Part shown: one piece after another, positions 38,077-48,894 of the stretch
Layout: each line of letters begins with the position of its first letter
Position numbering within the stretch: the first letter of the stretch is position 1
NCBI GenBank assembly: GCA_013297885.1
Contig: JAAFIR010000002.1
Location: 1 to 64,000 of the forward strand
Reading direction: 5' to 3'
Length of the DNA stretch: 64,000 nt
Source of the DNA: Leptospirales bacterium
GTDB lineage: Bacteria > Spirochaetota > Leptospiria > Leptospirales > Leptospiraceae
Program-made: the position numbers and the translations under genes
Notes under the pieces: model-generated
Seen by the model: the letters and a program-made list of their open reading frames with translations, nothing else
Database searches by the model: none
What the model was told of the DNA's origin: nothing

Positions 38077-40266
38077 CTAATTTATTTTTTCAAATTTTGT
38101 ATAAGCAAGTAAAAATTTTTTTTGGTTAAAACCAAAAGATACTCTTGCCATTCGATTATCGCCTGAACCAGTAATATCAATAATTTTTCCAAAACCAAAG
38201 TCTTTATGTTTTACTTTATCTCCAATTTTTAATTCATCTGAGTTTATTTCAACTGATCTTTTTTTTGAATCTAATGTATTATTTTGTAAACGATTTCCAG
38301 CAAAAGGTGTTCTAGTTGGTTTTCTATAATCAGTTTCATTATCTTCTTTTTCTAAAAGATGTTCAGGAATTTCGTCAAAAAAACGGGAGGGAATTCTAGA
38401 TTCACCTAAACCAAATTTTCTAGTAATTTTTGAAAAACTCATATAAAGTTTTTTCTTGGCACGAGTGATAGCAACATAACAAAGTCTTCTTTCTTCTTCA
38501 ATTTGTTTTTCAGAATCTAAAGACATTGAATGCGGAAAAGTTCCATCTTCTAAACCAGTTAAAAAAACATAATCAAATTCTAAACCTTTAGAATTGTGTA
38601 CAGTCATTAAAGTAATAAAATCATTTGATTCATTTGGATTTTCTTCAGATGTTAAAAGTGAAATATTTCCAAGATATTCACCTAAGTCTGGATTTTCAGT
38701 TTCTTCTTCATACTCTTCTAAAGCATTTAAGAATTGCTCAATGTTTTCCAGTCGATCGTTTCCTTCTAAAGAATCATCTTCTTTAAAATGTTTTATAATT
38801 CCCATCATCTCTAATAGATCTCTTAGAATCAAAGAAGGGCTTGTTTTATTTAAATACTTATTCCTTAAATCTTTTAGTTTAGAATAAAAATCTTTAAGTT
38901 TGATAATCATATTTGGTTTAATGCCAGATGGATTTTCATTTAAAACTTCAAATAAAGTCAGCCCGTTATCAATTGCATAATTTCTAATTTTATCTAAACT
39001 TGCATCTCCTATTCCTCGTGGAGGGAAGTTAATAATTCTTTCTAAAGACAAATTATCATTTGGATTTACTAAAACAGTTAAATATGAAACTAAATCTTTT
39101 ATTTCAGCTCTATCAAAAAATCGGAACCCACCAAAAATTTTATAAGCTAAATTTTTACTTCTTAAACTTTCTTCAAAATATCTAGATTGTGCATTAGTTC
39201 TATAAAAAATTGCAAAAGATTTTAAATTTTTAATTTCTTTATTTAATTTTATTATTTCATTAATAATAAAATTAGATTCTTCATTTTCTGAATAAAATTC
39301 ATTTAATCTAATTTTTTCACCAGATTCTTTATTAGAAAAAATTTTTTTATCTTTACGTTCAGAATTATTTTGAATTAAATTACTAGCTGCTTCAATGATT
39401 GTTTTAGTTGATCTATAATTTTCTTCTAGTTTAACTGTAAAAGTTTTTTTATAATCTTTTTCAAAATCCAAAATATTTCTTATATCAGCACCTCGCCAAG
39501 AATAAATACTTTGGTCATCATCCCCCACAACACATAAATTTTCAGTTTTACCAGCGAGCATCTTAGATAATAAATATTGAATTTTATTTGTATCTTGGTA
39601 TTCATCTACTAAAATATATTTCCAATAGGAATTGTATTTTTGTAGGACTTCAGGATGTTTTGTAAATAGTCCAACTACTTTATAAATCAAATCACCAAAA
39701 TCAAGAGCATGATTCTCTTTTTTTCTCTTTTCATATTCAAAAAAAATATCTTTTAGATTTTTTGTAAATTGGTCTTGTCGATTATCCAATCCAAACTCAT
39801 CTAAAGGTAAAAATTGGTCTTTGTATTTATTAAATTTATTTGCTAGATTACTAGCAGAATATGATTTTGAATCTAGATCTTTTTTTTTCACAATATCTTT
39901 AATTAAAGATTCTTGCAAGCTAGTATCATAAACTGTAAAATTAGAGCTAAGTTCTAAAATTTCAGAATTTGATCTTAAGATTTGTAAACATAAAGAATGA
40001 AAAGTTTTAACTGTGATACCATAATGAGAGTTAGGTAAAATCATTGTAATTCTTTCTTTCATTTCAGCAGCTGCTTTGTTTGTAAATGTTACAGCACAAA
40101 TATTATATGGTGAGATATTCTTCTTTAAAATTAGGTATGCAATTCTAAAAGTGATTACACGAGTTTTTCCAGAACCTGCACCTGCTAAAATTAAAACTGG
40201 ACCTTCTGTTTGAAGAACTGCTTTTTTTTGTTCTGAATTTAAATTTTCTAATTCTTCTTCAAACAT
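38077..40266 (-). CDS. pcrA: UvrD/PcrA-family DNA helicase
   Basis: A 3'-5' SF1A helicase for repair and for clearing recombinase filaments. The 729 residues hold all motifs: Walker A ILAGAGSGKTRVIT, AVTFTNKAAAEMKERI, DEYQDTNKIQYLL (Walker B), CVVGDDDQSIYSWRGAD, LEENYRSTK, TVHNSKGLEFDYVFLTG and CYVAITRAKKKLY. The tail VKHKDFGFGKIIDITGSG is the PcrA-type Tudor-like RNA polymerase-interacting domain. The ATG overlaps the stop of bamA (TAATG), so this helicase is coupled to an outer-membrane gene, an unusual partnership. Confidence 0.94.
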   Translation of the reverse strand: MFEEELENLNSEQKKAVLQTEGPVLILAGAGSGKTRVITFRIAYLILKKNISPYNICAVTFTNKAAAEMKERITMILPNSHYGITVKTFHSLCLQILRSNSEILELSSNFTVYDTSLQESLIKDIVKKKDLDSKSYSASNLANKFNKYKDQFLPLDEFGLDNRQDQFTKNLKDIFFEYEKRKKENHALDFGDLIYKVVGLFTKHPEVLQKYNSYWKYILVDEYQDTNKIQYLLSKMLAGKTENLCVVGDDDQSIYSWRGADIRNILDFEKDYKKTFTVKLEENYRSTKTIIEAASNLIQNNSERKDKKIFSNKESGEKIRLNEFYSENEESNFIINEIIKLNKEIKNLKSFAIFYRTNAQSRYFEESLRSKNLAYKIFGGFRFFDRAEIKDLVSYLTVLVNPNDNLSLERIINFPPRGIGDASLDKIRNYAIDNGLTLFEVLNENPSGIKPNMIIKLKDFYSKLKDLRNKYLNKTSPSLILRDLLEMMGIIKHFKEDDSLEGNDRLENIEQFLNALEEYEEETENPDLGEYLGNISLLTSEENPNESNDFITLMTVHNSKGLEFDYVFLTGLEDGTFPHSMSLDSEKQIEEERRLCYVAITRAKKKLYMSFSKITRKFGLGESRIPSRFFDEIPEHLLEKEDNETDYRKPTRTPFAGNRLQNNTLDSKKRSVEINSDELKIGDKVKHKDFGFGKIIDITGSGDNRMARVSFGFNQKKFLLAYTKFEKIN

Positions 40267-44847: not shown

Positions 44848-45861
44848 ATGATAAAAATTTTTCTGCTATTTTTTTTTCTAATCCAAACAATTTCTCCAGC
44901 TGAGTCTTTAAATAAAATTATTGCAATTATTGGTAAAATTTCAATTTCTCAATTAGATTATTCAAAAGGTGAAGAAACATATAAAGCTTTGTTAAAAGCT
45001 AGAAAACCATCAATTCGAATTAGTAAAGGTTCTCAAAAAACAAAAGTTTTAGACTTTTTGATCGATAGAGCTATTATGGATTTAACTGCAGAAGAAGAGT
45101 CCATTCAAGCTGGTGAAAAAAATATTGAATCTGAAATTGAAAGATTAATGAAACTAGGCAATACTCCTGATCGATCTAGTTTTGAAAAAATAATAGCTGA
45201 AAAAACAGGAATGCCTTTTGATGTTTGGCTAGATGATCTCCCTTATCAAATTAAAAAAAATCAATTAATGCAGCTTAGAGTAAATTTTAAACCTCCAACA
45301 GAAGCAGAAATTCATAAATGGTATTTGAATAATAAAAATAAAGTTGGGATGGAAGTTAAATTTAGAGAAATTTGTTTAAGTCCCAAAAATTCTTCTTTTG
45401 ATGAAGAAAATAGAATTTCTGCGGAAATTAACCAAATTAAAAAAGATTCAAAAAAAGATCCAAGTAGTTTTAATTTAGTAGCAAATAGTCCCAGAAACTC
45501 AACTCCTGGTGCTATTGATTGGATTCAAACATTTGATATTTATTCCAAAAGCCCAGTTTTAATGGCAGCACTTTCAAGAACATCAGAGGGTTCTGTTTCA
45601 GAACCTTTTAGAGATGATAGAGGGAAATATTGTATTGTAAAACTTGAAGGAAAAAGAAACACACCTGAAGAAAATATCAAAAGAAATATTGGTGAAATTA
45701 TTGCTCGTGAAAAAGCAGAAGGTAGTTTTGACGAATGGGTTGTCAGCAGAAGAAAAGAAGTTATTATATCTATTTATGATAAAGAGTACATAGCTGAAAA
45801 TAAATTAGAAGCACCAGATGAAACTTTTAATTATAATAAAATTAATATTCAAGCTCCATGA
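44848..45861 (+). CDS. SurA-like periplasmic chaperone/peptidyl-prolyl isomerase
   Basis: About 337 residues from ATG 44848 (a GTG 24 bp upstream is possible). A signal peptide (MIKIFLLFFFLIQTISPAES) is followed by a SurA N-terminal-type helical domain (KIIAIIGKISISQLDYSKGE, VLDFLIDRAIMDLTAEEESI) and one parvulin-like domain (EVKFREICLSPKNSS, GAIDWIQTFDIYSKS, SVSEPFRDDRGKYCIVKLEG). It would escort outer-membrane proteins to BamA, encoded divergently nearby. It overlaps the next gene by 4 bp (ATGA). Confidence 0.85.
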   Translation: MIKIFLLFFFLIQTISPAESLNKIIAIIGKISISQLDYSKGEETYKALLKARKPSIRISKGSQKTKVLDFLIDRAIMDLTAEEESIQAGEKNIESEIERLMKLGNTPDRSSFEKIIAEKTGMPFDVWLDDLPYQIKKNQLMQLRVNFKPPTEAEIHKWYLNNKNKVGMEVKFREICLSPKNSSFDEENRISAEINQIKKDSKKDPSSFNLVANSPRNSTPGAIDWIQTFDIYSKSPVLMAALSRTSEGSVSEPFRDDRGKYCIVKLEGKRNTPEENIKRNIGEIIAREKAEGSFDEWVVSRRKEVIISIYDKEYIAENKLEAPDETFNYNKINIQAP

Positions 45862-46994
45862 AGAAATTTAATCACAAAAATTCTTTAATAGGAATTTTTT
45901 TAAATCAAACCCAGAAAGAAATTCTTTTAAACAATAATTCATTAAGTAAATTTTTTTTTGATAAAATACAATTTATTTATCCTATTCTAAAAATTTATTC
46001 TAATTTTAAATTTAAAGATATTGAGTTAACTTTAATTGATGAAAAAAATGAAATTGTTTTTTTAAAAAAGATTTCTGAATTATTACCAAATTCAATTTCA
46101 AATGATAAAGATATTGATGAGGTATATTTTTCATATTTTAATGGAGTATATCCCTTGTTATCAATTCCACTGACCAAGGAGCTTGATGAAAGACATCAAA
46201 ATTTTTTATCACAATATTCTTATTCTGAAAACTTACCTTCAGGTATTATCCCAAAATTTATAAGTAGAGAATTTATTCAAAGTTTGCCAAATGATGAAAA
46301 TTTAAATTTTCATGATTATCTAATAAAAAATATTAATCATTTTGATGTTGAAATTTTCTTTAAAGAACCAGATTTAAGACAATATCGTTTAGATTTTTCT
46401 TTAGCATCACACGAATCCTTTATTCTAACAGAATCTTTAATACAAAAAAAATACAATTTAGAATATGAAGATATTTTAAATTTATTAAAAAAGGATCCAA
46501 ATTTATTTAGAATTAGCCCATTTTATCTTGAAATTGAATTATATAGAGGTTGTGAAAACACTTGTACTTTTTGTCCAAGACAATTTCAAAAATTAGAAAA
46601 TGATTTTAGTGGAATAGAAATTTCAACAATTGATAAATTAGTTTCTTCAATGAATACCGATTTTCCATTTAAATATACAGTTTGTTTTGGTGGATTAGGA
46701 GAACCTTTTTTACATAAAAATTTTAACAAGATTTCAGAAATTTTTTTAAAAGAAGAAAATTTAAAAGAGTTAATTGTTGAAACTTCTTTATATCCTGAAT
46801 TAGAATTTATTAAAGAAAAAATTTCTAATTTAGAAACATTTAAAAATAAACTTTGTTTCATTATTAATTTGAGTACAATTACAGAATCTAGTTACAAAAA
46901 AATTTATTCAAAATCAATCCTTAGTGAACAATTAAAGAAAATAGATTTTTTAGCTGAAATTTTTGGAAAAAGCCAAATTCATGTTCAAATGTAG
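45858..46994 (+). CDS. Spiro-SPASM radical SAM protein, 5' part up to an in-frame TAG
   Basis: Encodes an N-terminal region of about 215 residues without clear motifs, then a radical SAM domain: LEIELYRGCENTCTFCPRQF, with cluster ligands Cys232, Cys236 and Cys239 (CxxxCxxC), and KYTVCFGGLGEPFLHKNF. The frame stops at TAG (46992-46994, codon 379) in the middle of a conserved strand (IHVQM). The same frame then continues without a break into the SPASM domain (next entry); the full protein would be 499 residues. This layout matches the spirochaete-specific spiro-SPASM family, whose substrate is unknown. It is coupled to the SurA-like gene and to an SpsF-SpsG fusion. Confidence 0.82.
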   Translation: MKKFNHKNSLIGIFLNQTQKEILLNNNSLSKFFFDKIQFIYPILKIYSNFKFKDIELTLIDEKNEIVFLKKISELLPNSISNDKDIDEVYFSYFNGVYPLLSIPLTKELDERHQNFLSQYSYSENLPSGIIPKFISREFIQSLPNDENLNFHDYLIKNINHFDVEIFFKEPDLRQYRLDFSLASHESFILTESLIQKKYNLEYEDILNLLKKDPNLFRISPFYLEIELYRGCENTCTFCPRQFQKLENDFSGIEISTIDKLVSSMNTDFPFKYTVCFGGLGEPFLHKNFNKISEIFLKEENLKELIVETSLYPELEFIKEKISNLETFKNKLCFIINLSTITESSYKKIYSKSILSEQLKKIDFLAEIFGKSQIHVQM

Positions 46995-47357
46995 AAATTC
47001 ATTGAAATTGAAGAAGAAATTGAAAATTACTTTAATCATTTTGAAAAAAAAGGGATTAATGTAATTTTACAAAAATACAACCGTTTTGGAATTATGCCAG
47101 AAAAAAGAGTAAGTGATTTAACTCCAATTCAAAGAAACTTTTGTTGGCATTTAACTAGAGATTTATATATTCATTCCGATTCTACAGTTAGCTTATGTAA
47201 ACAAAAAGAAAAAAGAATTGGAAATTTGAAGAATAATTCTTTAATAGAAATTTGGGAATCAGGAATGGAAGATTTTAAAAAATCATTTTTAAATAAACAC
47301 GAACTTATAAATGCTCCATGTCTTGGCTGTGATGAATGGTATACTTTTAATGCATAA
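46995..47357 (+). pseudogene. Spiro-SPASM radical SAM protein, 3' part (SPASM domain) after the in-frame TAG
   Basis: Continues in the same frame as the radical SAM part, with no stop from 46995 to the TAA at 47355. It begins [19 protein letters not shown] and holds the SPASM cysteines in [29 protein letters not shown] and CLGCDEWY, which bind auxiliary Fe-S clusters. An internal ATG at 47094 has no convincing binding site. One base change at the TAG codon would restore the gene. Codon use and conserved motifs show no decay beyond that single codon. Confidence 0.75.
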
Positions 47358-48894
47358 TTATTTTGCCTTTATCCAAGCAAGAACAAACTCAACTAGATTT
47401 CAAGGAAAAGTTTTAGAAAAAATTGGAGATAAAAACCTAATTGAACATATTTATTTTCGTTTAGAAAAAATTTTATTTAAAGAAAATATTATTTTATTAA
47501 TACCTGAAAATGATTCCAAATTAATTGATTTTGCTAACTCAAAAAATTATAAATTTTTCAAAGGTTCCGAAAATGATGTAAGATCCCGTTTTATTGCTGC
47601 TGCAGAAAAATTTAATGCGGAAAATATAATTCGCTTAACAGCTGATAACCCCTTCATTGATTATAATTATATAGAATATTTATTAAGCTTTTTTAAATAT
47701 AAAGATTTTGATATTTCTTCATTTTCAGGACTTCCTTTAGGAATGGGAGTTGAAATTTTTAAAATAAGTTCCATAATAAAATCTCCAAAAAATGGTTTAA
47801 ATGATTCTCATTTTGAACATGTTAGTCTTCATTTAAAAGAAACAGATGAGTTTAAGTTTTTAAAATTATTTCCATTTATATCAAAAACTGAAGTTGATAT
47901 AACTTCAAATATTAGACTAAGCATAGATAAACCAGTAGATTTAGAAGTTTGTAGAGATGTTCACAAACAATTAGGTGATGACTTTAATCTTGAAGAAGTA
48001 ATCAAGCTATATAAACAATCCCCAGAAATTTTTAAAAAAAATAATACTGTAGAACAAATTAAGTTTACTACAAAATCAATTAAAACAAAAAAAAATATTT
48101 TTATAAATTTTGCTGATCCATTACCAAATGGAAGAGGTCATTATGAAAGATGTAAATATCTTTCAACTATTTTACAGTTAAATAATTATCACGTTCAAAT
48201 GGATAGTGTTTTAGATGAAGAAAATGAATATGATTTATATATTATTGATTCAAGAGACAAACTTGTTCCAGATTCCATTCGAAATAAAAAAATAATTTTA
48301 ATAGATAATTTTGGAAGTGATAGATATTCCAATATTCATTTTGATACTCTTCCAAATATGTTAAATGATTTTGAGGAATCAATTCAAAATACCCTGATTC
48401 CACAACATTTTTTTGAAAAAAAAGATCCAATCATAACAAATAAAGTTTTTTGTTACGCTGGTAATTTAAGTTTTAGAGAATCATATAAATTAGATTTATT
48501 TTTATGCAAACAATTTCAAAGTTCAAACTATGAAATCATAAGGGTTGGCGGTAGCCATAGAAAAAAAAAGAATTTATCTATAAAAATTTATTCAAAATTA
48601 AATAAAACTGAATATCTAAGATTTTTAAATGAATCTGAATTTTTTATTTCTTATTTTGGTCAATCCATAATGGAAGCTACTTATTTAGAAAAGAAAATTA
48701 TTTTATTTTCTATTTCTGATTATCATGATGAACTAGCATTTCATTTTGTTCAGAATTCAAATGCAATGTATGCTGGAGATATCCGCAAACAAAGTTTAAT
48801 TTACAATGCAAATTTTTTAAAATTCACAAGACCAAATGTTCTCGGAATGAAAGGTCATGGTTATGAAAAATTAATAAAACTAATTGAGGAATAA
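47350..48894 (+). CDS. Fusion of SpsF-like nucleotidyltransferase and SpsG-like glycosyltransferase-fold domains
   Basis: About 514 residues from ATG 47350, which overlaps the previous stop by 8 bp. The N-terminal half (about 1-235) is an SpsF-type NTP transferase: [40 protein letters not shown] and [14 protein letters not shown]. The C-terminal half (about 250-510) is like SpsG/Pse[36 protein letters not shown] and [20 protein letters not shown]. SpsF and SpsG are separate in Bacillus spore-coat glycan operons. With the spiro-SPASM enzyme upstream it may activate or attach an unusual sugar; that role is inferred. Confidence 0.82.

Follow-up and report, generated by a model that had tools for sequence, protein, structure and literature searches.

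A spiro-SPASM gene divided by a single in-frame TAG

The window analysed here comprises 64,000 nucleotides at the start of a 249-kb contig (C51) from a Leptospirales bacterium, whose genome of 4.6 Mb is assembled into 72 contigs, is 99.99% complete, has a G+C content of 27% where sampled, and finds its nearest named relatives among environmental Leptospiraceae metagenome bins such as UBA2033. On the plus strand, positions 45858–47357 hold a frame of 500 codons that runs from an ATG to a TAA (47355–47357). An earlier sequence-only reading had described this frame as continuous except for one TAG at 46992, and both the sequence and its translation bear this out: The stop at 46992–46994 occupies codon 379 and is the only one inside the frame. 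Since around 40 stops would be expected in a random or non-coding frame of 500 codons at this G+C content, an open frame with a single TAG is not a product of chance. The TAG is a correct observation, yet an ordinary one.

Both sides of the stop belong to the same protein family. The 378 residues ahead of it (45858–46991) comprise the N-terminal region and a radical SAM domain (Pfam Radical_SAM, PF04055, residues 226–350), with the CxxxCxxC motif in the form CENTCTFC, and match positions 25–388 of the NCBIfam spiro-SPASM profile TIGR04321 (E = 6e-73). The C-terminal 120 codons past it (46995–47354, plus strand) include the SPASM iron-sulphur domain (Pfam SPASM, PF13186) with its cysteines and match positions 393–510 of the same profile (E = 2.6e-46), in register with the first half, so that conserved motifs are indeed kept on both sides as the earlier reading had stated. 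With the stop read through in the search, the frame scores 416.2 bits (profile 40–510) against a cut-off of 250, which neither half reaches alone, and it is the sole TIGR04321 member above cut-off in the genome. The gene thus resembles the rest of the family in the register of its halves, in its score and in its neighbours, but it lacks the single uninterrupted reading frame that no other member among the matches listed has lost. The literature searched held nothing useful on this family and does not establish the function of its proteins.

The flanking genes are intact, as previously noted, and both overlap the interrupted one. Upstream lies a SurA-like peptidyl-prolyl isomerase gene (44848–45861, plus strand; TIGR04142, 353 bits against a cut-off of 250) that shares 4 nucleotides (45858–45861) with the spiro-SPASM start, and downstream lies a gene for a fusion of an SpsF-type cytidylyltransferase with an SpsG-like part (47350–48894, plus strand; Pfam PF02348), which begins ahead of the spiro-SPASM TAA and overlaps it. 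This order of surA-like, spiro-SPASM and SpsF-type genes is common to most of the Spirochaetota loci examined, though those inspected from Brachyspira did not show it; its conservation suggests a functional link that is not described in the literature searched. In the closest loci, the downstream start likewise overlaps or almost touches the spiro-SPASM stop, and expression of the SpsF/SpsG-like gene is therefore likely to be coupled to that of the spiro-SPASM gene.

The stop is absent from the aligned relatives and shows no sign of age

Alignment of relatives found 77 loci, and an alignment of 66 relatives was used to read the column of the TAG. All 66 have a sense codon there and none a stop, the residues being Leu (20), Met (19), Ile (10), Gln (7), Thr (5), Phe (2), Val (2) and Tyr (1), with Ile or Leu in the close Leptospiraceae. 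The codon in relatives, a comparison that the earlier reading had suggested, fits a recent mutation or a base error. A phylum-wide search recovered the spiro-SPASM gene in 302 of 393 spirochaete genomes, and no internal stop was found among the approximately 150 matches listed from it. In the relative UBA2033 (L083:3960-4080), the spiro-SPASM N-terminus lies in a different frame across an NN stretch, which is probably an assembly fault related to the gap.

The 120 residues past the TAG show no sign of relaxed selection or decay, neither in conserved columns nor in branch lengths. Among the 17 columns of this part that are conserved at 90% or more, 16 are kept, compared with 16 or 17 in intact relatives. 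On a fixed tree, the terminal branch leading to the window measures 0.21 past the stop and 0.64 ahead of it; the downstream value is in line with those of Leptospiraceae relatives (0.15–0.63), whose downstream-to-upstream ratios are similar to that of the window or higher, so there is no excess divergence behind the stop. It follows that the stop either arose recently, or reflects an error in the sequence, or does little harm owing to readthrough; the decay test fits all three alike and separates none of them.

Isolated lesions of other kinds occur in the same genome

A comparison of 1.18 Mb of this genome with proteins from 1.6 Mb of a genome of the same family (G004) and from a handful of loci in relatives covered 251 conserved gene spans or around 84,000 codons. 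Three mid-gene lesions emerged, namely the spiro-SPASM TAG itself, a TGA at C28:75175 (L182:15175) that interrupts a type IIG restriction-modification gene, both parts of which match PADLOC PDLC03604 in register, and an apparent frameshift relative to G004 near C33:2160-2190 (L208:2158-2190, minus strand) in a gene for a subtilisin-like protease. The TGA and the frameshift indicate that scattered broken genes do occur in this genome; there is no TAG-specific excess among the 251 genes, and isolated lesions in about 1% of those tested fit ordinary pseudogenes or sparse assembly errors.

Several other candidates were set aside. Pairs of open reading frames in the same frame across a stop were considered as interrupted genes, and those checked by profile search share no family and were taken as separate neighbours. 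Stops near the ends or starts of alignments (C28:224649, C1:64464, C28:25976, C5:55755, C28:24333, C28:12903, C5:83165 and C28:34305) were interpreted as the normal ends of genes or as sequence ahead of a start codon.

Nonsense mutation and base error as the likeliest explanations

The best explanation, to which we give slightly better than even chances, is that a single-base change created a nonsense codon very recently in the only spiro-SPASM copy of this organism. If the change is real in cells, translation would be expected to end at codon 379 and to yield a radical SAM domain without the SPASM iron-sulphur domain, a product that is probably inactive. The downstream overlapping SpsF/SpsG-like gene might be affected as well, because ribosomes that no longer reach its start could leave it less expressed; the polar effect that the earlier reading had considered is plausible from the overlap of the two genes. 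What speaks against such a mutation is that the gene is so widely kept among spirochaetes and is single-copy here, so that its loss would be unusual for the family. Moreover, an assembly error or readthrough would lead one to expect the strong conservation past the stop just as much.

A close second, and quite a credible one if somewhat less probable, is that the TAG is a one-base error of consensus or assembly, or the base of a minor strain in a mixed assembly, and that the organism itself has an intact gene. Assembly errors have been shown to lie behind many supposed pseudogenes of bacteria (PMC11017572), and the nearest named relatives of this genome are metagenome bins. The complete absence of decay past the stop, the wide conservation of a gene present in one copy, and the isolated TGA and frameshift lesions in two more of the 251 genes would all be in keeping with an error. 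On the other side, the assembly looks good by its contig number and completeness, and its lesions, 3 across 251 genes with a frameshift among them, are few and do not point to a high rate of base errors. Compared with ordinary nonsense pseudogenes and with the spurious ones created by assembly errors, the locus has the same single internal stop in a conserved and otherwise intact gene, and we found no feature that distinguishes it from either. Placing the nonsense mutation first is consequently a matter of judgement, since the data fit both. Of the four options offered by the sequence-only reading, these two are the ones that agree with the data; programmed readthrough lacks support, and a suppressor tRNA is excluded as far as the assembly goes.

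Readthrough and recoding

Functional readthrough would mean that a near-cognate tRNA decodes the TAG some of the time, so that a fraction of the enzyme is full-length and the downstream part stays under selection. That part does look constrained, and in-frame stops with signs of purifying selection are not rare in bacteria, where reported cases with dN/dS below 1 have been interpreted as readthrough (PMC7918605). A young stop accounts for the constraint by itself, however, and the stop is shared neither by any of the 66 aligned relatives nor by the phylum-wide matches listed. RNA folding around the TAG gave nothing remarkable (z-scores of −1.3, 0.6 and −0.4), and no further mid-gene TAG turned up among the 251 conserved genes, where other genes interrupted only by TAG had been suggested as a sign to look for. 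We therefore regard readthrough as unlikely and the programmed kind as unsupported. A more specific version, in which a genuine TAG has become fixed in the species and useful low-level readthrough tunes the amounts of both the full-length spiro-SPASM enzyme and the coupled downstream gene, appears more improbable still.

Amber suppression or reassignment of TAG, be it by a suppressor tRNA or by pyrrolysine, resembles this locus in a single point, the in-frame TAG with conserved sequence before and after it, and is very improbable. The genome carries a full tRNA set of 33 good genes with ordinary anticodons throughout, and a CUA anticodon was found neither among these nor on the sampled stretches, which excludes the proposed amber-decoding suppressor tRNA as far as the assembly shows. 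Unlike in amber recoding systems, release factor RF1 is present and intact, matches to pyrrolysyl-tRNA synthetase are weak and partial (21–25 bits against a cut-off of 178), and TAG is an ordinary stop: It terminates 161 of 1030 open reading frames of at least 100 amino acids in 1.18 Mb sampled, and just one mid-gene TAG occurs in the 251 conserved genes, as opposed to the depleted terminator and the many in-frame TAGs of a reassigned code. Separately from these genes, a weak tRNA-like match at C1:77660-77723 (L064:261-324) scores 26 bits, below cut-off, and ARAGORN makes no tRNA call there.

Least probable of all is a gene split into two functional polypeptides, the second restarted internally, for which an in-frame ATG lies around 34 codons past the TAG; a restart there would leave out conserved residues behind the stop, and no intact split version was seen among the relatives examined.

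Whether it is the nonsense mutation that we favour or a base error, the TAG looks ordinary and not like a new reading of the genetic code. It matters chiefly for annotation, as automated gene calling will produce a shortened radical SAM protein and overlook the SPASM domain. Should the nonsense mutation be real, it would constitute a natural loss of a gene that most spirochaetes have kept and could show whether this gene is dispensable.

Elsewhere in the window, positions 38426–38523 on the minus strand match Rfam RF03531 (n00280, a C. difficile small RNA located within a helicase gene) above the gathering score, which probably reflects conserved helicase coding sequence.
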